64,000 bases of DNA from assembly GCA_029263455.1 (NCBI GenBank), contig JAJCXM010000032.1:186001-250000 (forward strand). The letters are read 5' to 3'. A program made the position numbers and the translations under genes. Under the pieces are notes generated by a model. The model made no database searches and was not told the DNA's origin. It worked only from the letters and a program-made list of their open reading frames with translations. This document shows, in pieces, positions 1 through 41,839 of the stretch (within the stretch, counting starts at the first letter, position 1; each line of letters opens with the position of its first letter). This stretch comes from Holophagae bacterium. Lineage in GTDB: Bacteria; Acidobacteriota; Holophagae; Acanthopleuribacterales; Acanthopleuribacteraceae.

Positions 1-2
1 AG

Positions 3-1568
3 GTTACGGAAATAAAAGGACGAAAAATAACTATCAAAGCTGGTGCGAGCTTTGAATGTGAGCGAATCGTAGCGTCCGAGGAAGTGATCTTTGCGTCAGG
101 AAGTATTGCCGTCAAGTTTATCGACGCACCACGTATTACGGCGGACCCATCGGTGAAGGGAATCGTCATCCTGACCAACGCCGAAGAGGTGAGAGCTGAA
201 GGTGTGCGAGGTTTTATTCGCCCTAACGAGTTTAAGATGTTGACCGATCAGGGTCCGCTCTTGGCTCTCACATCAGTGGCGAGTGAACCGTCTGACAGAT
301 CATTTGATTGGGCTCAAGGGCCTGCCCCAGATCCTCCGTCAGCGACAGAACCTGAATCCGAGCCGGAGGGTGACGGTGTAACTTCCATGGACCTTGATTT
401 CGAGGAACTGGAAGCGCAAGTTGAAGAAGAGGCAACGCAAGAATCGTCCGACGAGCCTGAAGAGATTGTCCATGAAGACATTGATGTTGATGCGGAAGAT
501 GGTGAGTTTGAAGACGTACCCGAAACGGATGTCGAGGAAGATGTGCCGCCGCCCTTGATTGAAGATGAGGCCGATGCAGATGTCGAAGAGGATGTACCGC
601 CGCCCTTGATTGAAGATGAGGCCGATGCAGATGTCGAAGACGATGTACCGCCGCTTATGATTGATGAGCAGGATGACACCCCTCCACCTCTTACAGAAAT
701 CGATGAAGATATCCCTCCGCCCTTTGATGAAACATCGGAGTCGGAAAGTGCGGAATCGATTGTGGACGAATCTGTCGAGCAAATAAAAACCGTTAACATG
801 GACGATGAAGTCGAAGATTTTATGACCCGTGAAATCCGCGATTTCAACCCTAACGCCCAATTGATCACAGAGGACGTCGAACCTGAACAGGCTGAAGACG
901 ATGATATGTTGCTTGAGGGAGACGATGAAGTTTCGGACTCCATGTTATTAGATGACGATGACGATGAAATTCTGGAAATTGATATTCCGAGCGAAGAAGT
1001 CGAGTTCCTGCCGGAAATAACAGATTTTGATGATTTACCTGAATTGAATGAGGGCGATGTCAGCCTTAACGAAGATGCCAATAGTGGACCTATCGGCGAC
1101 GTTCCTTCCGTCGCCCCCATCCCTGATGATTATGATGAGCAGGATTCTGGAGAAGATGAAGCGATCGAATCCGAAGACGATGTAATCGACGACGAGCCTT
1201 TAGACGGCGAAAACGTCGCTGACAACTCAATCGATCAAAGCATGCATTTGGAAGAAACCTACACACCCACCGACTTCGATGCTGCCATGTTGGAAGAAAA
1301 TGAAGGCGATAGCGATGAGGACATCGTCGTTAGCCGCCTCAATGCAGTATTGGACGAAATCAAGGAATGTTTTCCGGATGTTAACTACCCGAAATTCATC
1401 AACCAGATCCAGTCGTATTTGGATGAACGGCGATTTTCGATATTACGCAAGAAACGTAACATGGAAGCCGTGCTCAATAGTTTTGATCGTTTGAAACACG
1501 CGCGCATATCGGAGCTTGCTCGGGACTTTTACGCAGTTCTGATTGACCATTTCGGCGACGAATTTTAG
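3..1568 (+). CDS. Acidic, low-complexity protein, 5' end outside the window
   Basis: The frame is open to the left edge, so the gene probably starts upstream; a GTG at 84 is the first in-window start but has no convincing ribosome site. Residues encoded from base 3 (VTEIKGRKITIKAG, then alternating short strands) look like the end of a beta-rich or bactofilin-like domain; this is a weak impression. The middle, about 300 residues, is extremely rich in Asp and Glu with Pro-Pro-Pro runs, and holds a 17-residue unit (DVEEDVPPPLIEDEADA) twice plus a partial third. The last 75 or so residues become basic and helical (NAVLDEIKECFPDV...ERRFSILRKKRNMEAVL). A DUF4388-like gene follows after 14 bases, so the two may be co-transcribed. 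Function not recognised; the layout suggests a cytoplasmic scaffold with a disordered linker. Confidence 0.6.
   Translation, partial: VTEIKGRKITIKAGASFECERIVASEEVIFASGSIAVKFIDAPRITADPSVKGIVILTNAEEVRAEGVRGFIRPNEFKMLTDQGPLLALTSVASEPSDRSFDWAQGPAPDPPSATEPESEPEGDGVTSMDLDFEELEAQVEEEATQESSDEPEEIVHEDIDVDAEDGEFEDVPETDVEEDVPPPLIEDEADADVEEDVPPPLIEDEADADVEDDVPPLMIDEQDDTPPPLTEIDEDIPPPFDETSESESAESIVDESVEQIKTVNMDDEVEDFMTREIRDFNPNAQLITEDVEPEQAEDDDMLLEGDDEVSDSMLLDDDDDEILEIDIPSEEVEFLPEITDFDDLPELNEGDVSLNEDANSGPIGDVPSVAPIPDDYDEQDSGEDEAIESEDDVIDDEPLDGENVADNSIDQSMHLEETYTPTDFDAAMLEENEGDSDEDIVVSRLNAVLDEIKECFPDVNYPKFINQIQSYLDERRFSILRKKRNMEAVLNSFDRLKHARISELARDFYAVLIDHFGDEF
528..680 (+). repeat. 51-bp in-frame tandem repeat, about 2.5 copies
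   Basis: Units begin at 528 and 579, each encoding the same 17 residues and differing at few bases; a third, more diverged copy starts at 630. Because the unit is a multiple of three it expands or contracts without frameshift. Degenerate shorter versions (DDTPPPLTEIDEDIPPPFDE) continue to about 735. Confidence 0.8.
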
Positions 1569-22504: not shown

Positions 22505-22619
22505 TTAATAGGGCTTCGAACGCCCCGATTACCGAATTTGCCATTGGATTAACGCTTCCGTCAGGTAAAATGAACGGTAATCATACTCTTAAAGTTTTGG
22601 CTTCTTGGCATGTGAGAAT

Positions 22620-25600
22620 ATGGATCAATTTTTCCAAGGCTCAGAAAAACGGCAACGTAAACGATTTAGACTGAGCCACAAGGCAGAGATCCAAGTTCAG
22701 GGTCAATTTTTTGAAGCTACATTAATCGATTTCAGTACCCGAGGCTTTTGTCTCGCGACAGCTGCAAATATTCCGAACGACGACAAGGTTCAGGTTGTTT
22801 TTTCGTTGCAGTCACCCAGAGATTGGGTTTTTCTAATTGCCATCGTCAACCAAAAATTGATGAACCAAAAAGGCTCTCAAGTGTCGCGCCTAGGTGTTCG
22901 CATTACAAGTTTTTCAAGTAACCCGGCTGCTTTTTTTGAACATTTAGTTCATTTGGTGAAAGTAGCACAAGCGGCACCTGTTGCGGCGAAACCCGTGGAA
23001 AAAACGGTTGTAGGACAAGTTACAGGTGCGACCCAATCAACTGAGAGCAAAAAAAAGGCGGGTACCAAGACAAAAAAGGAACATCGGACGGACAAACGTA
23101 TCCCATATTCGGCAGATGCCAAGATACGCATTGGGGAGAAAATATTTAAGGCAAGTGTGCATGACGTGAGTCAACGTGGGCTAAGTGTGCAGGCACCGAT
23201 GGAAATGCCGGTGTCAAAGCAAATGAACGTCCTGATTTTTATGCCAGATGGGGCTCGCCTACAGGTGGATGCGGTGGAGCGTGAACGACAGATCGTCGAA
23301 CAATCAGATGGTATCGGTCTGCGTTTGGGTTTACGTATCGTGCGTTCTGATGAGCAATTCAAGAAATTCTTTATTCATCTGCGTGATGACGAAGAACGGG
23401 ACGTTACGTTAAGGCAAACAGGTGCCCAAGATGACACAGGTAAAACGCATATCCTCTCGTCGGAACGTCATTTAGGCGATGCATCTTTTGGACTGCTAGG
23501 AAAACAGAAGTACAAGTTTATGAAGCCGTTAGGGAAGGGCGGGTTTGCTGAGGTTTACCTAGTTCGAGATTTGGCCTTGAACCGTGATGTCGCCATGAAG
23601 GTGCTAACGCCGAAATTTTCCAGTGATCCTAAGCTGAGTTCGCGATTTATTGCCGAGGCTCAGATCGCGGCCCAATTTGAACATGCACACATCGCCACGG
23701 TTTATGAGGTCGGCGACATTCCTAACCACGAATACAAGGAGAAACTGGACTTCCCGCCAGAGATTCTGGCAGCCTATGGCGCACGCATCGTCTATTTCAC
23801 CATGCAGTACATACAGGGTCACTCCATTGCTGAATTCATAAAGAATGAAGGGCGTCTTGATGGGAAGAGAACGCTGCTTTGGTCGTCGGCGGTTGCAAAG
23901 GCGCTCGCTTACGCCCACGAAAAAGGGGTGGTTCATCGAGATATAAAACCTGAAAACATCATGGTTACGTTGGAGAAACATGTGCTGGTGACCGACTTTG
24001 GGATCGCCAAAGTTTTGTCGCGCCAAGTGGACGATGATCCTGAGGTCGAAGGGTCTGTGGAGCAAGATAAGACGCGGGGTTTTATGGGGACACCTATCTA
24101 TGCGTCGCCAGAGCAAGTCGTGGCTGAAGGCATAGATGGTCGTTCAGACCTTTATAGTTTAGGCGTGATGATGTATGAAATGTTGCTTGGTCAACCTCCA
24201 TTCCGTGGCGAGCGATGGGTAGAAACCATAGCCATGCACCTACATAAGCTACCCGTACCCTTAATTGACCAAGATGCTCAGATTTCTTTGAACCTTTCCG
24301 ATCTTGTTATGAAGTGTTTAGAAAAAGACAAAGAGAATCGCTATCAGTCGGCGAGCGTATTTGTTGAAGCCATCGAAAAAGTGTATCTGTTCTTGCAACG
24401 TGGTGATATTGAGGTTGAAGCGCAGACGGCATTTGACGAAGATTCGTTTGAGCTAGTTAAGCGCCTATTCGTACAGTTTGGTAAAGCTTATCGAACGATT
24501 GGCACATACCCCGAAACGCACGATCTAGTGAAGCAAGCCACTACGGAGCTGTACAAACGTTTTGAAGCGTTCTTCGCTAAACACGAGCGGTTGGATATAA
24601 GAATAGAGTCCATGCGCATGATGTTCTTACATCAGACCATCTGGGAGGAGGACCAAAAAGAAAACGCTTTTTGTTTTAACCTCTTTCGCGACGGCATTCG
24701 CAAGCTTTTGTTTTTCAGAGGTATGCCTGCAGAAGAAATTGAATCTCTAATGATTCGCTTGTTTCGCTACGTCAATGACCATAGTAACTATGAAGAAGAC
24801 TCGGTGACGCTTCTGTTTCAGGCCGGTCTTCAATTTATTGACTTCGAATATGTGGATTCGTTTTACGAAGACGAGACGAGCCTGGCAAAAATACAACAGG
24901 TTCAAACTTATTGGTTGAATCGTTCGCCCTGGAAGTTTGCCGATCTTGCACAGCGATTACACCCCATCTCGGATGTTTTGGAACTAGAAAAACAAATCGA
25001 TCATTCATATAAGACCCTGCCGGTTGCTAAGTTGAAGCACTACCTGACAAAAGAAGTGGACCAAGCAATTCGACTTAAGGCGATCGACATCTTCCTCAGC
25101 CATTTACGTTTGGAAACCGATGTGGAGGATTTTGAAAGGCACTTCGCTGTACTAGAGGATGTGGTTTATTCGTGCCTCACTGAGAATGACCTAACGGCAG
25201 TACGCCAAATCTTCTCGGCACTGGAAATTTGGTCTCATGAAATCCCAGAATCCGACCCACGCCAAATGCACAAGCGACTCTTGTTACTTAAAGAACGAAT
25301 GTCACAACAGGATTTTCTAGATGAACTAATCGATAAATACTTTACGGTTGATCGTTCTACTAAAGACGCCATTTTTAATCTGTGTGAATTCATGCTGCCG
25401 AACATTGCGGTTAAGGTTATTTTTAATCGATTCAATACGGAAGTTGAAGAATGGCGCAAAATTTTCTTGAGCGAAATGGCGGTTATTGCAAGTGGGGCCA
25501 CTCTTACACCGCTGATCAAAATGTCGCTCAAACTGTCCGACGAACATGCCGCCATCATGTTGAACGGTTTTGCGCGCTCGAGCGATAAGCTTTCTAAAAG

Positions 25601-26105
25601 TGTATTCGATTCTTGGCTGAAGCACTCCGGCTCTCAGACTCGATTGCGCGTGGCACGTATGATTGCTGCCGCAAAAGATCCTGCCCTGCTTGATTTAATG
25701 ATTCGCATTGGGCGTGATCCTAATTTGAAATTCGAAGAATCGCGTCGCTATGCGTGGCGGTATATCGGTCAAGTTGCTAAGCCCAAGTTAGCGCCTATCG
25801 TTCTTGAGTTCATGAATTTGGACGTCTTTTTGCCATTGTCAGAAGACGAACGAAAAACAATTATTCAATACGCTGGAAAGTCAGGGGTCGACAAAAACTT
25901 CGATTTCTTAGTTGGGTTACTTAATGAACATGGCGCCTTTGGCCAAGGAAAAGCTGATTTGGAGGATCGCAAATTGGCGGCGACGATCCTGCTAAAAACG
26001 GGACAAAAAATAGGCCGAGAGGCGGTTGGCAAAATGGCAAAAAAATTAATTGGGAATCGCGATTTGATTAATCATTGTAAGCAACTTCTAGAGGCCAACT
26101 CGTGA
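22620..26105 (+). CDS. Tandem PilZ - Ser/Thr protein kinase - helical-repeat protein
   Basis: 1161 residues from the ATG at 22620 (a TTG at 22605 would add five). Two PilZ domains: the first has RQRKR (RxxxR) and DFSTRG (DxSxxG), residues about 8-110; the second has RTDKR and DVSQRG, residues about 155-260. Both motif pairs are those that bind cyclic di-GMP. A Hanks-type kinase follows (about 295-590): LGKGGFAEVYLV glycine loop, VAMKVL lysine, VVHRDIKPENIM catalytic loop, VTDFGIAKV, GTPIYASPEQ. The remaining 570 residues are helical, with HEAT-like stretches (TRLRVARMIAAAKDPALLDLMIRIG). The downstream gene overlaps by 4 bases. A kinase controlled by cyclic di-GMP is the natural inference. Confidence 0.88.
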   Translation: MDQFFQGSEKRQRKRFRLSHKAEIQVQGQFFEATLIDFSTRGFCLATAANIPNDDKVQVVFSLQSPRDWVFLIAIVNQKLMNQKGSQVSRLGVRITSFSSNPAAFFEHLVHLVKVAQAAPVAAKPVEKTVVGQVTGATQSTESKKKAGTKTKKEHRTDKRIPYSADAKIRIGEKIFKASVHDVSQRGLSVQAPMEMPVSKQMNVLIFMPDGARLQVDAVERERQIVEQSDGIGLRLGLRIVRSDEQFKKFFIHLRDDEERDVTLRQTGAQDDTGKTHILSSERHLGDASFGLLGKQKYKFMKPLGKGGFAEVYLVRDLALNRDVAMKVLTPKFSSDPKLSSRFIAEAQIAAQFEHAHIATVYEVGDIPNHEYKEKLDFPPEILAAYGARIVYFTMQYIQGHSIAEFIKNEGRLDGKRTLLWSSAVAKALAYAHEKGVVHRDIKPENIMVTLEKHVLVTDFGIAKVLSRQVDDDPEVEGSVEQDKTRGFMGTPIYASPEQVVAEGIDGRSDLYSLGVMMYEMLLGQPPFRGERWVETIAMHLHKLPVPLIDQDAQISLNLSDLVMKCLEKDKENRYQSASVFVEAIEKVYLFLQRGDIEVEAQTAFDEDSFELVKRLFVQFGKAYRTIGTYPETHDLVKQATTELYKRFEAFFAKHERLDIRIESMRMMFLHQTIWEEDQKENAFCFNLFRDGIRKLLFFRGMPAEEIESLMIRLFRYVNDHSNYEEDSVTLLFQAGLQFIDFEYVDSFYEDETSLAKIQQVQTYWLNRSPWKFADLAQRLHPISDVLELEKQIDHSYKTLPVAKLKHYLTKEVDQAIRLKAIDIFLSHLRLETDVEDFERHFAVLEDVVYSCLTENDLTAVRQIFSALEIWSHEIPESDPRQMHKRLLLLKERMSQQDFLDELIDKYFTVDRSTKDAIFNLCEFMLPNIAVKVIFNRFNTEVEEWRKIFLSEMAVIASGATLTPLIKMSLKLSDEHAAIMLNGFARSSDKLSKSVFDSWLKHSGSQTRLRVARMIAAAKDPALLDLMIRIGRDPNLKFEESRRYAWRYIGQVAKPKLAPIVLEFMNLDVFLPLSEDERKTIIQYAGKSGVDKNFDFLVGLLNEHGAFGQGKADLEDRKLAATILLKTGQKIGREAVGKMAKKLIGNRDLINHCKQLLEANS

Positions 26106-27602: not shown

Positions 27603-28523
27603 TTGTTTTTCGAAGGATCTGAAAAAAAGTTTGAAATTGTCGTAAAGATAGGGCTTCCCTCTTTGCGAAGTCTCAAGTCCGAATGGCAACGTGTGGTGCT
27701 TGCGTCTGGTGCGCAAGTGCTTTCGGTTGTTAGCAATAGCGACTGCGACGCATATTTGTTGTCCGAATCGTCACTTTTTGTGTTTGATCAACGCGTCATC
27801 ATGATTACTTGTGGTCAGACAGCCTTAATACGGGCGGTGCAAACCGTCTTTACTTTTGTTCGCCGCCAAGACGTTGAGCTTTTCATTTATGAACGCAAGA
27901 ATGAGCACTTGCCCGAAAATCAATCGACCGACTTTGATGCTGATGTACGCATATTGAATGGGCTCATGCCAGGAAAGGCATATTGTTTTGGCGACCGGGA
28001 CGGGCATCATATCCGGCTGTATCATATGTTGGCTGACTACCACCCTGAACCTCAAGATACGACGTTAGAGATATTAATGCATGGTCTCGATCGTGAGTCG
28101 GCCGAGCTTTTCTTTGCCAGTCAAGGCATCACCTCCAGCGATGTCGGCATACGTTCTGGATTGACGCGTCTCTTTCCTGACTTTGAAAGTGATGGCTTTA
28201 TATTTGATCCGTTTGGTTATTCGTTAAATGCGATACACAAAAAGGAATACTACACGGTTCATGTCACGCCTCAAGTTGGTTGTTCCTATGCGAGTTTTGA
28301 AACCAATCGTCATTTACAAGGTGATGTCTCGCAGTTAGTTGACAAAGTTCTTGATATTTTTAAGCCCGAATTCTGTTTACTCATGTTGTTTGAGCGTGAA
28401 GATGGGAATTGTCGTTTAGGCGCGACCGATGTTGTTGATCACCGCATCTCACATGCCTTGGAATGCGGATACCGAGTGCATTTTGCGTCTTACAAAATGG
28501 ATTCGCATGCGTTGAATCGCTAG
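27603..28523 (+). CDS. speD: S-adenosylmethionine decarboxylase proenzyme, eukaryotic-type
   Basis: 306 residues, close to the eukaryotic length and unlike short bacterial SpeD. It decarboxylates AdoMet to supply aminopropyl groups. The N-terminus FFEGSEKKFEI matches the human opening, keeping both glutamates used in proenzyme processing. YLLSESSLFVFDQRV contains the self-cleavage site Glu55-Ser56; Ser56 becomes the pyruvoyl cofactor. The catalytic Cys70 is in MITCGQT. FDPFGYSLNAI (Ser207) and VHVTPQVGCSYASFETN (His220) supply the other processing residues. The TTG at 27603 is preceded by GGAGAG. speE follows after 42 bases. This class is unusual in bacteria. Confidence 0.92.
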   Translation: MFFEGSEKKFEIVVKIGLPSLRSLKSEWQRVVLASGAQVLSVVSNSDCDAYLLSESSLFVFDQRVIMITCGQTALIRAVQTVFTFVRRQDVELFIYERKNEHLPENQSTDFDADVRILNGLMPGKAYCFGDRDGHHIRLYHMLADYHPEPQDTTLEILMHGLDRESAELFFASQGITSSDVGIRSGLTRLFPDFESDGFIFDPFGYSLNAIHKKEYYTVHVTPQVGCSYASFETNRHLQGDVSQLVDKVLDIFKPEFCLLMLFEREDGNCRLGATDVVDHRISHALECGYRVHFASYKMDSHALNR

Positions 28524-28565
28524 AAATTTTTTAATCAAAAAGATTCGTCGTCAGGAGACCTGGAT

Positions 28566-29453
28566 ATGCAATCCGTTGAATCGAATACGCAGTTGTGGAT
28601 CGAAGAAATACATAAAGGAGTCTTGGGCCAAAGATTTCGTGTCCGTGACACGTTGTTCTCAGGACGCAGTGAATTCCAGACCGTTGACGTTGTCGATACC
28701 TATGGCCATGGCCGTATGCTCTTTATCGACGGGCTGGTGATGCTTTCAGAACGAGATGAGCACGTGTATCACGAGATGATCGCGCACGTCCCGTTGTTCT
28801 CACACCCCAAACCGCGTCATGTTTTGGTGATAGGCGGTGGAGATGGTGGAACGATTCGAGAGGTGGTTCGCCATCCTTATGTCGAAAGCGCGACATTGGT
28901 TGAAATTGACGAAATGGTGGTTGATGTTTCTCGAAAATATCTAAAGTCGACCTCTTGCTCATTGGACGACCCTCGAGTGACCGTGCGAATTGAAGACGGT
29001 TTGGCTTTTGTCAAACACTGCAAGCAGAAGTTTGATGTGGTTATTGTTGATTCCACCGACCCAATAGGGCCCGCAGCACCATTGTTTGGCTTAGATTTTT
29101 ATCGCGACGTAAAGTCTGTGCTGGCCGAGAACGGGATTGTTGTCTCTCAAGGCGAATCTCCATATTACGAACCAGATTGGCAAATCGCGCTGGCGAAATT
29201 ACTGGCGCAAGTCTTTCCTGATGTGTTTTTTTATAACTATCACAACATGACCTATCCAGGCGGACTATGGAGTTTTTCTTATGCGTCAACTGGTAGCCAC
29301 CCATTGCGCGACTTCAAGAAAGAACGTTGGCATGCGCTTAACTTGGAAACGAAATATTATGATCCCGAAATGCATCGAGCCGCGTTTGCGCTGCCTCGCG
29401 CCCAGAAAAAGGCTTTGAGTGCGTTTATTAACATTACCAATGATGACCAATAA
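28566..29453 (+). CDS. speE: Spermidine synthase
   Basis: 295 residues. It transfers the aminopropyl group from decarboxylated AdoMet to putrescine, releasing methylthioadenosine. The nucleotide-site motif VLVIGGGDGGTIREVVRH is intact, followed by TLVEIDEMVVDVSRKYL and the active-site FDVVIVDSTDPIGPAAPLF. YHEMIAHVPLFSHP and VVSQGESPYYEPDW also fit. The N-terminal segment (LWIEEIHKGVLGQRFRVRDTLFSGRSEFQ) forms the small beta domain. A good ribosome site (AGGAGA) precedes the start. The stop TAA overlaps the first base of the RuBisCO-like gene's ATG. Confidence 0.95.
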   Translation: MQSVESNTQLWIEEIHKGVLGQRFRVRDTLFSGRSEFQTVDVVDTYGHGRMLFIDGLVMLSERDEHVYHEMIAHVPLFSHPKPRHVLVIGGGDGGTIREVVRHPYVESATLVEIDEMVVDVSRKYLKSTSCSLDDPRVTVRIEDGLAFVKHCKQKFDVVIVDSTDPIGPAAPLFGLDFYRDVKSVLAENGIVVSQGESPYYEPDWQIALAKLLAQVFPDVFFYNYHNMTYPGGLWSFSYASTGSHPLRDFKKERWHALNLETKYYDPEMHRAAFALPRAQKKALSAFINITNDDQ

Positions 29454-30559
29454 TGACACAAACGGATAAGCGACTCGTCGTCCATTACGACGTCACCGGC
29501 GAAGGTGACCTGAAAGAGGCCGTCCATGCAATTGCCTTGGAGCAAACGGTCGAATTACCCCAAGACTTACTCAATGACAGCTGGATCGAAGCCCATGTTG
29601 TCGGTCGCATTGAGCATTGTGAGTCAAAGGGTCCCAAGCAATTGCGAGCTGTGATTTCGTATGATTTGGACACCGTAGGCGGTGAAACACCGCAGCTCCT
29701 TAATGTCTTGTTTGGCAATATTTCGCTGAAACATGGCATTAGGATTCTGGATGTTGAGGGGCTAGAGCACATCTTGCCAGGACCTCGATTAGGCATCGAA
29801 GGATTACGCAAGCGAGTTGGCGTTGAGAAAGGTGCGTTGATATGCACGGCACTCAAACCAATGGGCAAGTCAGCCGAGTATTTGGCTTCTATGGCCTACC
29901 AACTAGCCCTAGGGGGCATGGACCTGATCAAAGATGATCATGGCCTAAGTAATCAAAGTTATGCGCCCTTTCGGACCCGTGTGCGACTAATACAAGAAGC
30001 CGTTGATAAGGCCAATCGGGAAACCGGGCAACGATCAATCTATATACCTAATGTTGCTTCGCCGTTGGGCCGCCTTAACGCCGATCTTGAACTCTGTCAG
30101 ACGCTTGGCATCGAGATGATCATGGTCAGCCCATTTCTGATGGGATTGGACGTTTTTCGTCATATCGCTCAGCAAAACAAGTTCGCTATCTTGGCGCATC
30201 CGGCAATGAGCGGATCTCTTTTTGCCTCTAGCACCCATGGGATGTCTCCTCAATTTGTACTGGGCACTCTTTTTCGAGCGCTTGGAGCTGATGCGTCGAT
30301 ATACCCCAACGTGGGCGGACGTTTTGTATTTGAACAGGACGTTTGCCACCTGATTAACGACGCCTTACGAAATATGAGAGCTACTTTTAAGCCATCGTTT
30401 CCGGTCCCTGCTGGCGGCATGACATTGAATCGTGTTGACGAGATTCATGATGTCTATGGTCAAGAACTGATACACTTGATTGGCGGAGGATTGCTGCGAA
30501 CCAATCCAGATTTGCGGCTTGCGGCCCAGGCATTTAGGCAGGCCGTTAGACCTCAATAA
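29453..30559 (+). CDS. RuBisCO-like protein (form IV), probable methylthio-sugar phosphate isomerase
   Basis: 368 residues, shorter than true RuBisCO large subunits. CTALKPMGKS (Lys135) corresponds to the catalytic Lys in loop 1, and GGMDLIKDDHGL holds the carbamylatable Lys160 and Asp161-Asp162; the third metal-binding residue, normally Glu, is His163. AHPAMSGSLF and GADASIYPNVGGRF fit the barrel. The loop 6 lysine region is absent, so it should not fix carbon dioxide. Family members catalyse enolase or isomerase steps in methylthioadenosine salvage. The KDDHGL signature and neighbours speD, speE and a cupin suggest the Rhodospirillum-type 5-methylthioribulose 1-phosphate isomerase; other RLP roles (e.g. 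apionate metabolism) remain possible. Confidence 0.88.
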   Translation: MTQTDKRLVVHYDVTGEGDLKEAVHAIALEQTVELPQDLLNDSWIEAHVVGRIEHCESKGPKQLRAVISYDLDTVGGETPQLLNVLFGNISLKHGIRILDVEGLEHILPGPRLGIEGLRKRVGVEKGALICTALKPMGKSAEYLASMAYQLALGGMDLIKDDHGLSNQSYAPFRTRVRLIQEAVDKANRETGQRSIYIPNVASPLGRLNADLELCQTLGIEMIMVSPFLMGLDVFRHIAQQNKFAILAHPAMSGSLFASSTHGMSPQFVLGTLFRALGADASIYPNVGGRFVFEQDVCHLINDALRNMRATFKPSFPVPAGGMTLNRVDEIHDVYGQELIHLIGGGLLRTNPDLRLAAQAFRQAVRPQ

Positions 30560-30573
30560 GAAGGCGGGAACCC

Positions 30574-31050
30574 ATGATCGTTAGTCAAAACGGCACGCTT
30601 GAAACAACGCCCGAAAAAATGTTCGGAACCACGAGTAAAATTTTTCGGGCACAAGAATCTGGGGATTGGAAACACATTCCGGTGGAACCTTACAAGAAGG
30701 AATCCCAGACCTATCGCGGTATGACTCGTCGCGAGCTAGTCGGCAAACGGGGCGAGAAAACGAGTTTTCATTTGAGATATTTTGAGATTGAGAAGGGTGG
30801 CTATTCAACGTACGAACACCACCAACATGAACATGTTGTTTACATCACCAAGGGAACGGGTGAAGTGAGGCTCGGTTGCCGTTATATGACCGTTGGCGTT
30901 GGTGATGTGGTTTATGTAGGCCCCGATGATGCCCACCAGTTCTTGAACCCTAATAGCGATGAGCCATTTGGGTTTCTGTGTGTGGTGGACGCTGTGCGGG
31001 ACCGGCCTCGAGAAGTGGACGGTGAGGGTTTTTGCGAGATATGCGAATGA
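30574..31050 (+). CDS. Cupin protein, candidate methylthioxylulose 5-phosphate methylsulfurylase
   Basis: 158 residues with one complete cupin. Motif 1 is GGYSTYEHHQHEHVVYITKG (metal-binding histidines plus following residues) and motif 2 is GDVVYVGPDDAHQFLN. The first 55 residues are a basic, less conserved extension. It lies 14 bases after the RuBisCO-like gene with AGGCGGGA upstream. In R. rubrum a cupin next to the RuBisCO-like gene removes the methylthio group from 1-methylthioxylulose 5-phosphate to yield 1-deoxyxylulose 5-phosphate; by position this is the likely counterpart, although small cupins are functionally diverse. Two cysteines at the C-terminus (GFCEICE) may be of interest for thiol chemistry. 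Confidence 0.75.
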   Translation: MIVSQNGTLETTPEKMFGTTSKIFRAQESGDWKHIPVEPYKKESQTYRGMTRRELVGKRGEKTSFHLRYFEIEKGGYSTYEHHQHEHVVYITKGTGEVRLGCRYMTVGVGDVVYVGPDDAHQFLNPNSDEPFGFLCVVDAVRDRPREVDGEGFCEICE

Positions 31051-31654: not shown

Positions 31655-32881
31655 TCAATCGGGTTTTAGCATCAATAATTGTTGTAAATGGGCCCTATCA
31701 TCAGTGCTCAGCCAAGAAAGGTTTTTGAATAGTTTGGAACTGTTGGCCAACATCTGTTTGCATCGCAGTTGTTGGAGCCACGTTGGCAACCAAGTACGCT
31801 TTTGGTGGGCTTCCTTCAGAGTGAATCCGAGTCCGCGCAAAAAGGCAACTTCTTCAGCACGTAAGATAGGCAATGGCAACGCATGATGAGTGCCTGGACT
31901 GATGTAAGGCAGGTAAGCAAAATGTGACTCGATTTTCCGTAATTCATGAACGGAAGCATTGCCATTTTGTGCTCTTGTAAAGAGCGGTAGTTTGCCGAAT
32001 AGTCGTTCCCAAGCAGGTGTTGAATAACGTATTAGTAGCGTCTTTACTCGTTCTTGCTGTCCCTCAGACATGTCCGAATAGTGATCTGGGACTTGATGGT
32101 AAAGATGCTTTATGAGCGTCTTAATGGCTTCATCGCCTTGTTCAATGGATTTTGCATAGTGAGGTTCGAATCGGCTTACGTAGCTATTCCAGTTACTTGA
32201 AGTAATCGTTCCGGTACGGCTCTGTCCATATTTGACCCCAAACCGGATCCCGCATTTGTAGTATGTCGTTCGGCTTACGCTTCCTGTGGCCAACATGCCG
32301 GTCACGCCTCTGCCTTTCTTGTCATCCGATTGGGCGGTCAAAACCCATTCATCGTCGTCAACAGTGGGGACAAGGTCTTTACCGTTGAGTCGGATCTTGA
32401 CGTCAGATTGGGCGCAGAAATAGGCTAGTTCATGGGCTTCCTCGGTCACATACTTGGTCGGACGTTTGATCGTTAATTCAAAGCCCGCTAACGGAGTAGG
32501 CAACTGTGTAAATGCCAAGCTCTTACCGTCAGCTTGCACGCCCATAGAGCCGCTACGAAGATCCACTTGCCAACCTGAAAGCAACACGGCAATAAGCGCG
32601 ATGCCTCGCTTTTGCTCCACATCTTCTAGTGCCATATTGCGGGTTTGTGGTTCATCGCTCAGGGCGACGTTCTTAAGTGTCTGCCATTCGTTGGCGGAAA
32701 GTGGCGTTCCTTGGTGGACCAGCCTGAATTGACCGCCTCCATTCTCAACACTAATGACATCAGGTGACCGTGTCAGGGCATCGCGGATAAGTTGTACCGT
32801 GTAGTGAACTTGATTCAAGGATTGTCGCTGCGAGATTTTCAATAGCGCTTTGTCTAGGTCGATATCTAATAAGCTATCCAT
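31655..32881 (-). CDS. Degenerate GHKL-like protein, partner of the ATPase-transglutaminase
   Basis: 408 residues, no signal or membrane helix. The N-terminal 120 residues look like a worn GHKL/HSP90 nucleotide domain: VQLIRDALTRSPDVISVENGGGQFRLV replaces the N-box and the DxGxG motif (no Asn in the expected place; ENGGG at 46-50), and KRGIALIAVLLSGWQVDL sits where the second glycine motif would be. Function of the middle and C-terminal parts is unknown. The gene begins inside the last 8 bases of the preceding ATPase gene, so translation is coupled. It may bind the partner's ATPase domain, giving a heterodimer, but this is inference. Not recognised as a described family. Confidence 0.55.
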   Translation of the reverse strand: MDSLLDIDLDKALLKISQRQSLNQVHYTVQLIRDALTRSPDVISVENGGGQFRLVHQGTPLSANEWQTLKNVALSDEPQTRNMALEDVEQKRGIALIAVLLSGWQVDLRSGSMGVQADGKSLAFTQLPTPLAGFELTIKRPTKYVTEEAHELAYFCAQSDVKIRLNGKDLVPTVDDDEWVLTAQSDDKKGRGVTGMLATGSVSRTTYYKCGIRFGVKYGQSRTGTITSSNWNSYVSRFEPHYAKSIEQGDEAIKTLIKHLYHQVPDHYSDMSEGQQERVKTLLIRYSTPAWERLFGKLPLFTRAQNGNASVHELRKIESHFAYLPYISPGTHHALPLPILRAEEVAFLRGLGFTLKEAHQKRTWLPTWLQQLRCKQMLANSSKLFKNLSWLSTDDRAHLQQLLMLKPD

Positions 32882-35651
32882 GGCTAGCCCCTTCGATGTT
32901 TTGTCGAGCTATTTTCAAGACTCGATGGATGTGTAATCTCAGCGACAGCGTTCTCGAAATTAATTCTACGGTGGCGATCAATGCACCACGTTTTGCATCG
33001 ATATCGTAGATAGCTTGACTTTCATTGATCCAACGACTGTTACTTGAAAAACCGATCCAGTGGTGTAGCCCATCCTTAAGCCGTACTTGAAGGTCAATGG
33101 GTGTCTGATCGTTCTCAAGCATGACAAGATGTGTTTTTTTATCAAGTGAACTGAGGACTCTCTTTACCAGTTCCAAGCAGCTAGGCATTTGAAACGGGGA
33201 ATCGAAACGAAGGATGTCGTCTAGGTCAACGCAATCAGGCAAGTACGGTCTGAGCCTTTGGACATAAGGACAGTCACGATCAAGCACCCAAACAGAATCG
33301 TGGAGACGTTTGATTAACGCGTGTTCATCACGACCCATTAGGGGCGATCTTGTTTTCGCGTATTGCTGCAATTGACGCAGGCTGACGTGACGACCGTTCA
33401 ATAGACGAAGCACCGGAGCGTAGTGAGCCATGTTTCCGTGCTGGTTGTCCGAGTTTACGTCATGCTCTAGGATTTGTCCGAGTACCAGGGCCGCTTCCAG
33501 GTCTGGGCGCGGGTTGGCGGGCCGTCGACGCTTTAGCCACAAAACGATTAGGCCAGAGATGGTGAGAGCCAGAGCAATATACGGAATTGACGAACGAGTG
33601 GAAGGGTTAGGACTCTGCGACGAAACGTCGGTTTGAGTCGCCACCGGGATCGGGTTAGGGGCCGGTCCCGAGCCCAATGGTTCGTGATTTTGAGATTGAG
33701 ACGAGACATCTATGTGATGCCAGCCGTCCAGGTAATAGTTAGTCCAGGCATGCAAACTGGCTGGGGTCCCTTGACCATGCATGGGCAGACCCACTTCTAC
33801 GTAGGCAGGAATGCCGACACTGCGAAGCATCAATGCGCACATACCGTTCATGACATCGCAATCACCACGTCCCACGGAGAGAACCTTTTGAATCCAGTCA
33901 AGGTCCGATTGGTTAAAGCGTCGGATGCTTTGCCAATCGCGCGCGTAACTAAGGTGGCTGGCCAGAAGAATACGTACGGCTGCGACACGTTCGTCAAGAG
34001 AAGAGATGGTTTGTATTTCAGCTAGTTGCGCTTGAATGAGCGTGTCCCATTTGGGCGGCGCTTCCAAGAACGAAGGGTGAGAGCCAACTTGGACCGAATG
34101 GTTGCGACGCGCTCTATATGAAACATGAGTTTCCTGTAGCGATCTCAAGGTTAAAATTGGTGATCCGGCTCGGGAAAGCATTAGATTTTGTATCTCGCCT
34201 TGATCCAAGGATATGGAGCTCTTGACGAGGGCGCTGCCTGTGGGAAGTGGAAGAAATACGATCCTGTTTCGACCCGAGATGCGCATCCTGATTCTGTAAT
34301 CGCTTTCAGCTGGTTCCAGTTCGGGGTAGGCCGTGTCTGAGGTCAGGGCAGCTGGGAGCAACCCCTTTTTGGCGTCAAATTGGGACAATTGGCCAACTGT
34401 TAAGATCAAATCCTCGGCTGGGGTGACGCTGATGTCCCATGTTTGGGGGTCTTGTTGAGGCAGATCAATCTTTGGTTCGCTCCAATGGTCAAAGATCTGG
34501 TCCAGGGTTGTCTGTGATTGAGGTCGCTCTAAAGCCCTCGATACCGTGCTTGCAGTTAGGGGCACCGTATCTGTGTCGGGAACGCGAAAAATGAGCCAGC
34601 TGAGCAAGACTAAGAATACAATCGAGATTGAAGCAATTTTCCAACGTCGTTTCAATCCATCCAGTAGCCACAGACATTGATTGAAACGATTCAAAGGGAA
34701 GAGGGACCTCAAAACGACGCGTTCTTTCTTTTTTAGTTTTTGTTCGCATTGTTCAATGATCGCCAGCAAATGTGCATCTTCGTATATGGAACGACGGTCC
34801 ATGAGTATGGTCAGCGAGTCATCGTTGATGACCACCTGCGGGTGAATGCCAAAGGTGTTAGGCGTGTATTGCTGGCCGCGGCTAGGTAAGAGCTCGTGCA
34901 AATCGGTGACGTCTCGCACCAGAATGCCTGCCTTGTAGACACGCACCCATGGCTTGCGGCCAAAGCCAACAAATCCCTCTGCATAGCCATTGTTGATGGT
35001 GTCTGCCATGTATTGGGGCTGAGGCAGAGGTCGATTCATAGGCTTATTGTTCAATTCGAGCTTTAGATGGGGAATTGGGGGTACAGGCTGGACAGGGCCA
35101 GCAAAGGCGGTCACATGTTTTTCTATTTCACTTTCTAGCTCAGACACGCGAATGAAATGACGTGGTCGATGGAGAATGACTCGGAATCCGTCTTGCTGCA
35201 GCGATGGGTCAACGGCCTCGATATCTAGTGAACGACAATCCAAGCGGTAAGCGGTTGCAATGCCATCGCTGCAGGCCTCTACCAAGACCCAGTCGGGGTC
35301 GTAAAGCAGAATGGACCAAAAACCCACCCCAAATACGCCTACACTGGCCGGATCTACCTCTTTGCTGGAAGCATAAAGGCGAAATAAGTACCGCCTCATC
35401 TCATCGTCGGTCATGCCAATGCCGTCGTCTCTGCATTCAATCCACTCGCGGTCACCGTCGATGCCTGCCGATAATCGTATGTGACTTGCCTTGGCGTCAC
35501 GGCTGTTTTGTATCCATTCACGTAAGAAGACCCAGCGATTTTCGCCATATCGCTTAGCTTCATGCAGGGCACGGGTTAAAAATGCCTGAGTCATAGATTG
35601 AGCGGTATTTGTCAGTGTCATAACCTTCCAATCCCTCATCGGCATGCTCAC
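32874..35651 (-). CDS. HSP90/GHKL-type ATPase fused to a membrane-anchored transglutaminase-like domain
   Basis: 925 residues from the GTG at 35651; ATGs at 35645, 35639 and 35621 are possible starts. Residues 22-200 are a GHKL nucleotide domain like HSP90/MutL: REWIQNSRDA (44-53, N-box), CRDDGIGMT (73-81) and VGVFGVGFWS (104-113). A membrane helix lies at about 338-356 after KRR. The following region ends in a transglutaminase-like core: GRGDCDVMNGMCALMLRSVG (Cys598), LHAWTNYYLDGWHHIDVS (His634, Asp648). A second membrane helix at about 690-706 ends at KRRR. Positive charges on both sides place the transglutaminase outside and the ATPase inside. The last 210 residues are unrecognised. Confidence 0.8.
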   Translation of the reverse strand: MSMPMRDWKVMTLTNTAQSMTQAFLTRALHEAKRYGENRWVFLREWIQNSRDAKASHIRLSAGIDGDREWIECRDDGIGMTDDEMRRYLFRLYASSKEVDPASVGVFGVGFWSILLYDPDWVLVEACSDGIATAYRLDCRSLDIEAVDPSLQQDGFRVILHRPRHFIRVSELESEIEKHVTAFAGPVQPVPPIPHLKLELNNKPMNRPLPQPQYMADTINNGYAEGFVGFGRKPWVRVYKAGILVRDVTDLHELLPSRGQQYTPNTFGIHPQVVINDDSLTILMDRRSIYEDAHLLAIIEQCEQKLKKKERVVLRSLFPLNRFNQCLWLLDGLKRRWKIASISIVFLVLLSWLIFRVPDTDTVPLTASTVSRALERPQSQTTLDQIFDHWSEPKIDLPQQDPQTWDISVTPAEDLILTVGQLSQFDAKKGLLPAALTSDTAYPELEPAESDYRIRMRISGRNRIVFLPLPTGSALVKSSISLDQGEIQNLMLSRAGSPILTLRSLQETHVSYRARRNHSVQVGSHPSFLEAPPKWDTLIQAQLAEIQTISSLDERVAAVRILLASHLSYARDWQSIRRFNQSDLDWIQKVLSVGRGDCDVMNGMCALMLRSVGIPAYVEVGLPMHGQGTPASLHAWTNYYLDGWHHIDVSSQSQNHEPLGSGPAPNPIPVATQTDVSSQSPNPSTRSSIPYIALALTISGLIVLWLKRRRPANPRPDLEAALVLGQILEHDVNSDNQHGNMAHYAPVLRLLNGRHVSLRQLQQYAKTRSPLMGRDEHALIKRLHDSVWVLDRDCPYVQRLRPYLPDCVDLDDILRFDSPFQMPSCLELVKRVLSSLDKKTHLVMLENDQTPIDLQVRLKDGLHHWIGFSSNSRWINESQAIYDIDAKRGALIATVELISRTLSLRLHIHRVLKIARQNIEGASHG

Positions 35652-35811: not shown

Positions 35812-35888
35812 GCGGGCGTAGCTCAGCTGGATAGAGCATCTGGCTACGAACCAGAAGGTCAGGGGTTCGAATCCCTTCGCCCGTACCA
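35812..35888 (+). tRNA. tRNA-Arg (ACG)
   Basis: A 77-base cloverleaf with encoded CCA. The acceptor stem pairs GCGGGCG with CGCCCGT (one G-U). The anticodon stem TCTGG/CCAGA encloses the loop CTACGAA, giving anticodon ACG. The T-loop GGGGTTCGAATCCC is canonical. Confidence 0.96.
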
Positions 35889-40906: not shown

Positions 40907-41839
40907 ATGCCACAGACGCTCGTACATTTTGTGCTTGATGCCCTTGAGAAGCGGCTCCTGGGAAAACGGCTACAGCTTGAATATGCGTTGGCTTGCCTTT
41001 TAGCTCGGGGTCATTTGCTAATTGAAGATGTGCCTGGGGTCGGTAAAACCACATTGGCGAAGAGCTTGGCTTCTTGTTTTGATGTTAAGTTCCGTCGCTT
41101 GCAGTTCACTTCTGACTTGTTACCTAGCGATCTCATCGGTGTCACCATTTATAAACAGCGTGAGGAAGTATTCGAATTTGTGCCCGGTCCCATATTCACT
41201 AATGTTTTACTTGCTGATGAAATAAACCGTGCGAATCCCAAAACGCAAAGCGCGCTTTTGGAAGCCATGCACGAGGGTCAAATAAGCCACGACAGTCAAA
41301 CTATGATTCTTCCAAAGCCCTTTTTTGTGATCGCGACCCAAAATAGTAAAGACCACTACGGCACATTCCCATTACCTGAATCTCAATTGGATCGTTTCTT
41401 GATGCGCCTAAAGCTCGGATACCCAAACGCCAAATTCGAGAAACAGGTCATACAAGGCGATTACATGTCTAGTGACATAGCCATTAACGCAAGTCATTTG
41501 GACGATTTACTGCATCTTCAGGAGCAAGCCGATCAGGTGAGCATCTCAGAAGAAGTGATGGATTACATCTACCAAATTGTGCGTGCCACGCGAGCCCACG
41601 ACGCCATCCGAATCGGTGTTTCGCCCAGGGGCGGCCAGGCGCTGTATCGGTCGGTTAAAGCCTTGGCAATGGTGCGCGGGCGTACCTTCGCTATTCCTGA
41701 TGATGTTCGCGAATTGGCGGGCATTGTTTGTGGCCACAGGATTTTGTTGAAATCAACGGTCACGAGTGCCGAAGGTGAGGACGAAGCCACCACCATGATC
41801 TTCCAAGATATTTTGGAGAGCATGCCGTCACCGGTCTAA
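40907..41839 (+). CDS. MoxR-type AAA ATPase
   Basis: 310 residues. Walker A is EDVPGVGKTTLAKSLA, Walker B is LLADEINRANPKTQSALLEAM, sensor 1 is FVIATQN. FVPGPIFTNVLLADE and PLPESQLDRFLMRLKLGYP are MoxR signatures. MoxR ATPases help mature protein complexes, usually next to a DUF58/vWA gene; here the next gene is RNase J on the other strand, so the common partners are absent. The start has GGAGGAGAC upstream. Confidence 0.92.
   Translation: MPQTLVHFVLDALEKRLLGKRLQLEYALACLLARGHLLIEDVPGVGKTTLAKSLASCFDVKFRRLQFTSDLLPSDLIGVTIYKQREEVFEFVPGPIFTNVLLADEINRANPKTQSALLEAMHEGQISHDSQTMILPKPFFVIATQNSKDHYGTFPLPESQLDRFLMRLKLGYPNAKFEKQVIQGDYMSSDIAINASHLDDLLHLQEQADQVSISEEVMDYIYQIVRATRAHDAIRIGVSPRGGQALYRSVKALAMVRGRTFAIPDDVRELAGIVCGHRILLKSTVTSAEGEDEATTMIFQDILESMPSPV

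Follow-up and report, generated by a model that had tools for sequence, protein, structure and literature searches.

Two overlapping genes of the 64,000-nucleotide stretch of a Holophagae bacterium contig analysed here (the window) encode an Hsp90-like ATPase (A), predicted to be split by two transmembrane (TM) helices with an outward-facing transglutaminase between them, and a smaller Hsp90-like protein devoid of an ATP site (B). The architecture of the pair, both sets of active-site residues, the homology of the two halves of A with those of B, the Hsp90-like folds and the strict pairing of the genes emerge directly from the computational analysis. We infer a heterodimer, the direction of signalling, the coupling across the membrane and the substrate, and see about even chances that A and B form an Hsp90-type heterodimer in which ATP turnover acts through the membrane to control an external transglutaminase or peptidase.

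Organization of the gene pair

Both genes lie on the minus strand. Gene A (32874..35651) encodes 925 aa when read from a GTG codon, and gene B (31655..32881) encodes 408 aa and starts within the last 8 bases of gene A (32874..32881), as was noticed in the first-pass annotation of this region. The GTG start is uncertain. Alternative ATG codons occur at residues 3, 5, 11, and 20, the homologue of gene A from the same genus starts about 18 codons downstream of the GTG, and the true start is probably the ATG at residue 11 or 20.

The ATPase half of A is Hsp90-like

Residues 19-320 of A (34692..35597, minus strand) correspond to an Hsp90 N domain and a large middle domain, as indicated by fold superposition, hhalign comparison, and residue counts. 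The N domain contains the ATP-site residues E45, N49, D75, G77, G79, G105, G108, and G110, and matches Pfam HATPase_c_3 at residues 43-140 with an E-value of 2e-8, above the curated cut-off, which agrees with the earlier view of a GHKL ATP domain, found here to be intact, on the inner side of the membrane, where both ends of the protein are placed. In the VIA alignment, residues 19..320 of the A model superpose on residues 106..451 of TRAP1 (6d14_A) with Z 19.7 and rmsd 4.4 over 270 residues, and the Z scores against TRAP1, HtpG, and Hsp90 are 19-20. The hhalign comparison of the N part with HtpG gave a probability of 99.3% (E 1.5e-20), and the A segment ILMDRRSIYED was aligned with LNVSREILQND of HtpG, which places R286 (codon at 34794..34796, minus strand) on the middle-domain catalytic arginine of the Hsp90 SRE motif (R417 in TRAP1). 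R286 is unchanged in 26 rows of the A alignment and, like E45, N49, D75, and the glycines, is kept in every row that covers it, the single deviating row being a C-terminal fragment. The Glu, Asn, Asp, and Gly motifs of the Hsp90 N domain are present in A and not in B. The ATP lid (residues 94-106) is modelled with low confidence, and none of the 27 A and 32 B members was matched by Pfam HSP90 (PF00183) at E-values of up to 1. Results of our analysis indicate that the GHKL part of A is specifically Hsp90-like and not a generic GHKL domain; the GHKL fold proposed at first stands, and its assignment is narrowed to the Hsp90 N and middle domains with R286.

An external transglutaminase between two membrane helices

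Two putative TM helices follow, at residues 339-357 (34581..34637, minus strand; hydropathy 2.39; model helix 335-355) and 688-706 (33534..33590, minus strand; hydropathy 2.02; model helix 692-708). Four K/R residues precede the first helix and one follows it, while one precedes the second and five follow it, which by the positive-inside rule places the transglutaminase outside and both ends of A inside. This predicted topology, supported also by the AF2 helices, is the one that had been proposed for the outward-facing domain. The outward region (residues 380-655; 33687..34514, minus strand) consists of a beta domain followed by the transglutaminase core. Transglut_core (PF01841) is matched at residues 551-648 with an E-value of 2.2e-10 and 41.2 bits against a cut-off of 23, and in 26 of the 27 A rows. 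The first-pass numbering of its triad is exact: the nucleophile Cys598 (codon 33858..33860), His634 (33750..33752), and Asp648 (33708..33710), all on the minus strand, are invariant, being kept in all 26 rows that cover this part. The nearest solved structure to the outward domain is the periplasmic domain of TgpA (6g49, E 3.5e-5). The fold-library matches listed for whole A are all taken up by Hsp90 and MORC (and MutL in Foldseek), so that they bear on the Hsp90-like body and not on the beta domain (about 405-520). Between the transglutaminase and the second helix, residues 653-693 are modelled as a disordered linker (pLDDT about 35). Profile searches and structure prediction thus recovered both the GHKL and the transglutaminase folds.

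The cytoplasmic tail of A (residues 707-925; 32877..33533, minus strand), described earlier as a 210-residue extension, is indeed present, with a length of about 218 aa, and comprises a second middle-domain part and an end that may correspond to the Hsp90 C-terminal domain. It is homologous to the tail of B (hhalign probability 94%, E 1.2e-7), most clearly in its middle part (95.8%, E 7e-9). The VIA range of the A model (20..915) spans residues 8..620 of HtpG with an rmsd of 13.8 at full length, so that the relative domain positions in the model are unreliable. The similarity of the tail to the C-terminal part of HtpG is weak by sequence (E 0.0014), and the A and B tails resemble each other (E 1.6e-4); this C-terminal part is missing in B of the window. 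The tail is the rest of the same Hsp90-like body, and the TM-transglutaminase-TM unit is an insertion within the Hsp90 middle domain of A.

B is a degenerate Hsp90-like partner

The model of B (pLDDT 88.4; A and B were predicted as single chains only) matches TRAP1 4ivg in Foldseek with an E-value of 8.7e-14 and superposes on TRAP1 with Z 18.3 over 349 residues (VIA). The hhalign comparison gave an E-value of 1.5e-6 over 354 columns with HtpG and a probability of 98.5% (E 2e-15) with the GHKL half of A; mismatched-part controls stayed below 1%, and the figures for A and B come from deeper profiles, as profiles of 2-3 sequences were too shallow (1.1%). No Pfam family was matched by B. It lacks the Mg-binding Asn, the lid, the catalytic Arg, and most of the G2 glycines. 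In B homologues, the Asn position is most often occupied by A, R, H, S, D, Q, G, M, or V, and those of D52 and A53 mostly by R. The earlier reading of the partner as a GHKL domain without ATP-site residues thus holds and can be refined: B is, as modelled, an Hsp90 N and middle-domain fold without an ATP site. Its best-conserved stretch is the N-terminal SIDxxAxLxK segment, which would sit at the position of the Hsp90 N-terminal dimerisation strap and helix 1. The C-terminal part found in most B homologues is absent from B of the window and its genus and from B of loci L028 and L029.

Conservation and genomic context

The search for the pair across genomes showed it to be conserved. The A and B genes overlap by 4 or 8 bases at all 33 junctions examined (28 and 5, respectively), which come from Acidobacteriota and from two genomes outside that phylum (L012 and L013); L036, whose long B frame begins at -8, is counted among the 8-base overlaps. 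A and B thus remain paired in at least two bacterial phyla. The distances of A and B are correlated (r 0.87 with the N part of A, a value reached in none of 5000 permutations), although simple co-inheritance of an operon would also produce both the overlap and the correlation. Every strong match to the N part of A on an uncut contig is a long frame of about 880-1036 aa, so the sampled genomes gave no instance in which the fusion had been lost.

The distribution of the pair is patchy (13 of 396 genomes of the phylum). In the window and the same-genus copies it lies in housekeeping synteny, with dxr upstream and rplI downstream. The genome of the window has a separate ordinary HtpG, and A/B is therefore not the housekeeping Hsp90. 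Conserved third genes, suggested earlier as worth looking for, were not found: in neighbour clustering over 17 loci, only A and B occur everywhere. A Lactamase_B_3 gene upstream and a DUF3014 gene downstream are limited to one lineage, and in other lineages the adjoining gene encodes a zinc metallopeptidase (PF04298), an OsmC protein, a lytic transglycosylase, or a peptidase C69, none of them constant. No mobile or defence neighbours were seen at the loci, and the plasmid search returned only HtpG and other generic GHKL proteins.

The analysis also uncovered a broader class of gene pairs, soluble and likewise made up of an active and a degenerate Hsp90-like member (L110-L119). As in A/B, an active GHKL gene (about 520-570 aa, with a few longer frames) lies beside a gene with a B-like degenerate N domain, usually overlapping it. 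Unlike A, the active subunit has neither TM helices nor a transglutaminase, the partner is much larger than B (about 750-2300 aa), and these pairs form a clade separate from A/B in the N-domain tree.

Discussion

In the mechanism proposed here, A and B would form a membrane-bound Hsp90-type heterodimer. A would be the catalytic subunit, whose N domain may bind and hydrolyse ATP with the use of its own middle-domain Arg, like Hsp90, and B a pseudo-ATPase subunit that would contribute the second N domain when the clamp closes on ATP. As the TM-transglutaminase-TM unit is inserted in the middle domain of A, clamp motion would move the TM helices; opening and closing of the clamp in the cytoplasm could thus displace the two helices relative to one another, turning the outward Cys-His-Asp enzyme on or off, with the signal passing from inside to outside. 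The enzyme would then cleave or cross-link an envelope protein or peptide by acyl transfer, with papain-like thiol chemistry. The case for a dimer held constitutively by its C-terminal domains, like that of Hsp90, is weakened by the lack of this part in B from the genus of the window and from L028/L029, and with the linker disordered, tight mechanical coupling to the second helix is not obvious.

The signal might also pass in the opposite direction, the external domain binding or processing an envelope signal and thereby controlling the ATPase/chaperone cycle of a cytoplasmic Hsp90-like heterodimer that acts on cytoplasmic clients. The topology and pairing data fit this too, histidine kinases offer a comparable arrangement with the sensor outside and the GHKL domain inside, and divergence has been faster in the external part (mean identity 0.29) than in the ATPase part (0.39). 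Nevertheless, we consider it unlikely, as the invariant triad speaks for an enzyme rather than a mere sensor, and no constant cytoplasmic partner gene besides B accompanies A. Less probable still is a membrane-tethered chaperone for membrane or secreted proteins, in which the transglutaminase would be an independent envelope enzyme on a shared anchor, with no allosteric coupling: the long disordered linker before the second helix would suit it, but the unit lies inside the Hsp90 middle domain and not at an end, which is unlikely for mere tethering, and none of the strong matches on uncut contigs had lost the fusion.

Bacterial conflict systems are known to include GHKL and sacsin-like ATPases as well as transglutaminase-like peptidases (PMC3710099, PMC8195603), and this, together with the patchy distribution, could point to a role in conflict or phage defence, exerted through an ATP-gated effector in the membrane. 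The housekeeping synteny, the neighbourhoods free of mobile and defence genes, and the generic nature of the plasmid matches make such a role very improbable; moreover, the PADLOC search found no full-length match to a known anti-phage system protein, only a partial GHKL match of residues 16-156 of A to TmtA (E 9.5e-8).

Comparison with known systems places the pair closest to Hsp90, HtpG, and TRAP1, with which A shares the N-domain ATP site, the middle domain with its catalytic Arg, and, by fold and profile, some of the rest of the body. It differs from them in that two TM helices and an external enzyme break up the chain of A, and in that two different genes are involved, B having no ATP site, whereas Hsp90 is encoded by one homodimer gene. 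A TM-anchored transglutaminase core outside the cytoplasm is also a feature of Pseudomonas aeruginosa TgpA (PA2873, PDB 6g49), which exhibits transglutaminase activity in vitro and has a critical role in viability (PMC3507681). TgpA, co-transcribed with two upstream genes (PA2875 and PA2874), contains no fused GHKL/Hsp90 ATPase; A has such an ATPase in the same chain and only two TM helices in place of the multi-TM anchor of the TgpA family. The N domain of A is of the Hsp90/sacsin type, and 26 of the 27 A rows match Pfam SACS, with A of the window scoring below the family cut-offs of SACS and NCBIfam P_loop_sacsin; A lacks sacsin repeats, HEPN, and DnaJ, and sacsin lacks the membrane insertion and the transglutaminase. 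The GHKL fold and transducer domain are shared with MORC and MutL (Z about 17-18 against MORC2/3/4), but A has no nuclease or CW domains and its best sequence match is HtpG (E 5.5e-9 vs. 3.7e-7 for MORC2).

No system or family that joins GHKL or HtpG with a transglutaminase was found in the family libraries and open-access papers searched, in line with the initial impression that the layout has no described counterpart, and the open-access papers searched contain no description of obligate pairs of an active and a dead Hsp90. We know of no described Hsp90-type protein that spans a membrane or has an enzyme built into its middle domain. That the pair is a transmembrane Hsp90 machine, a catalytic/dead heterodimer in which cytoplasmic ATP drives an external enzyme, and one of a wider, so far undescribed bacterial group of active/degenerate Hsp90-like heterodimers, seems to us possible at slightly less than even chances. 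ATP is available in the cytoplasm and absent from the cell envelope outside the membrane. If the coupling is real, the pair would represent a novel means of driving or gating reactions in the ATP-free cell envelope, and would provide a natural, genetically separable test of an Hsp90 clamp with one ATP site per dimer.

Results

Gene A (35651..32874, minus strand, 925 aa counted from GTG) is directly followed by gene B (32881..31655, minus strand, 408 aa), which overlaps it by 8 bases; the coordinates and the residue numbers in the first-pass annotation were correct. Because the same-genus homologue begins there, the true start of gene A is probably the ATG at residue 11 or 20 and not the GTG. 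In Pfam, gene A matches HATPase_c_3 (E 2e-8) and Transglut_core (E 2.2e-10), and gene B has no match. Gene A encodes two transmembrane (TM) helices (residues 339-357 and 688-706). Positive charges precede the first and follow the second, a placement from which residues 358-687, with Cys598, His634 and Asp648, are predicted to lie outside the membrane. A tRNA-Arg (ACG) gene (35812-35888, plus strand) lies on the opposite strand immediately upstream of gene A.

The proposal that gene A encodes a GHKL ATPase holds and can be refined to an Hsp90-like one. In profile-profile alignment, its N-terminal part matches HtpG of related genomes (99.3%, E 1.5e-20), and HtpG is also the best hit of the A profile among PDB sequences (5.5e-9), the next relatives after Hsp90/HtpG being MORC and MutL. 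The alignment sets 'ILMDRRSIYED' opposite 'LNVSREILQND', which places R286 at the position of the Hsp90 middle-domain catalytic Arg. In the AF2 model (mean pLDDT 80.6), residues 19-320 match TRAP1 (6d14_A; 270 residues, Z 19.7, rmsd 4.4). Longer Hsp90 chains give matches that resume in the tail past the second TM helix. The best of these, HtpG 9a6t_B (model 20..915, rmsd 13.8), supports the order of parts alone. Taken together, the match over 19-320 and its resumption indicate that, in the model, the TM-transglutaminase-TM unit has been inserted into the middle domain of the Hsp90-like body. The source genome also encodes an ordinary HtpG at a separate site.

The closest solved structure to the transglutaminase core, which is preceded by a beta domain (about 405-520), is TgpA of P. 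aeruginosa (E 3.5e-5), a protein critical for viability whose periplasmic portion acts as a transglutaminase in vitro (PMC3507681). In the sister genome, a same-genus relative, a multi-TM membrane transglutaminase protein of TgpA-like appearance is encoded at L007 397-2385. A MoxR-type AAA ATPase gene (40907-41839, plus strand) is located some 5 kb away from gene A; in other genomes, genes of the MoxR and TgpA families often occur in linkage.

Gene B, described in the first-pass annotation as a degenerate GHKL partner, encodes a degenerate Hsp90-like protein. In profile comparison, each half of B matches its counterpart in the cytoplasmic body of A (98.5%, E 2e-15; 94.1%, E 1.2e-7), and mismatched halves, used as a control, gave no match. 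Its model (pLDDT 88.4) resembles TRAP1 4ivg (Foldseek E 8.7e-14; VIA-align Z 18.3 over 349 residues, 1..361 vs. 101..568). Members of the B family have lost the Mg-binding Asn (motif N), their G motifs are degraded and their lid region is unalignable; Glu or Asp is still present in some of them. The most constant stretch, the N-terminal 'SIDxxAxLxK' segment, appears to sit at the position of the Hsp90 N-terminal dimerisation strap. B of the window genus is without the C-terminal part found in most members, a loss shared by two or more lineages (lengths of 380-408 aa vs. the usual about 450-550; L028:6401-7540, L029:9407-10552 and window B).

The pair recurs, as the search suggested in that annotation revealed: the genes are adjacent in the same genus (identity 41 and 48%) and in another genus of the same family, where a contig end, with a 13-base overlap, divides gene A. 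They also stand together in two more families of this phylum and in the phyla to which two other genomes, L012 and L013, belong. Its frequency is low (13 of 396 phylum genomes with the first B profile, 11 of 297 with the A N-domain profile). At all 33 junctions examined, the start of B lies 4 or 8 bases upstream of the end of the A stop codon. Distances of A and B are correlated (r 0.87; none of 5000 permutations as high), which operon co-ancestry alone would also give. Glu45, Asn49, Asp75, the glycines of both G motifs, R286 and the Cys-His-Asp triad are invariant in every row covering them. No constant third gene was found among neighbours of the compared loci.

Deep B profiles also match operons in which an active GHKL gene (about 520-570 aa) stands beside genes with B-like N-domains (about 750-2300 aa). 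In contrast to A/B, these soluble pairs (L110-L119) are without transglutaminase, and one to three large partner genes adjoin each intact Hsp90-like gene (e.g., L118:6194-11319, L116:3298-11534, L112:2593-11535). The large partners tested matched no Pfam, NCBIfam or PADLOC family. The N-domain tree contains three separate groups, namely, the transglutaminase type (26 rows, 97/93), the soluble type (9 rows, 97/99) and HtpG (13 rows, 100/100); being unrooted, it does not give their order of origin. A soluble ancestor that later gained the membrane-enzyme insertion might be the simpler origin.

Discussion

The anatomy, homology, conservation and pairing of A and B were computed; an A/B complex, its direction of control and its substrate are what we infer from them. 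We favour inside-out control, in which the ATP cycle of an A/B clamp governs the external enzyme: the Hsp90-type clamp would close with ATP, closure would displace both TM helices of A, and their movement would gate the external thiol enzyme. The same layout could instead serve outside-in sensing through the external domain, or a tethered chaperone without coupling to the enzyme.

A defence role is a further alternative. In the window and the sister genome, however, A/B are flanked by dxr (upstream) and rplI (downstream), with two hydrolase-type genes between dxr and the pair in the window; the setting is thus chromosomal housekeeping synteny rather than a defence island. Nearby on the plus strand, a row of four genes (27603-31050) encodes adenosylmethionine decarboxylase (PF01536 type), spermidine synthase, a RuBisCO-large-chain-like protein (368 aa) and a cupin, the latter two of which adjoin rplI in the sister genome too (L037 15309-16880). 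A 1166-aa protein (22605-26105, plus strand) contains PilZ domains followed by a protein kinase domain.

No family in Pfam, NCBIfam or PADLOC covers the A/B system, and no such system was found in open-access literature on the combination. The parts belong to known superfamilies. No precedent was found for their combination, in which a membrane-crossing Hsp90-like ATPase carries an external enzyme within its middle domain and is joined by a dead Hsp90-like partner; on a cautious view, the A/B system could be a new variant of Hsp90.
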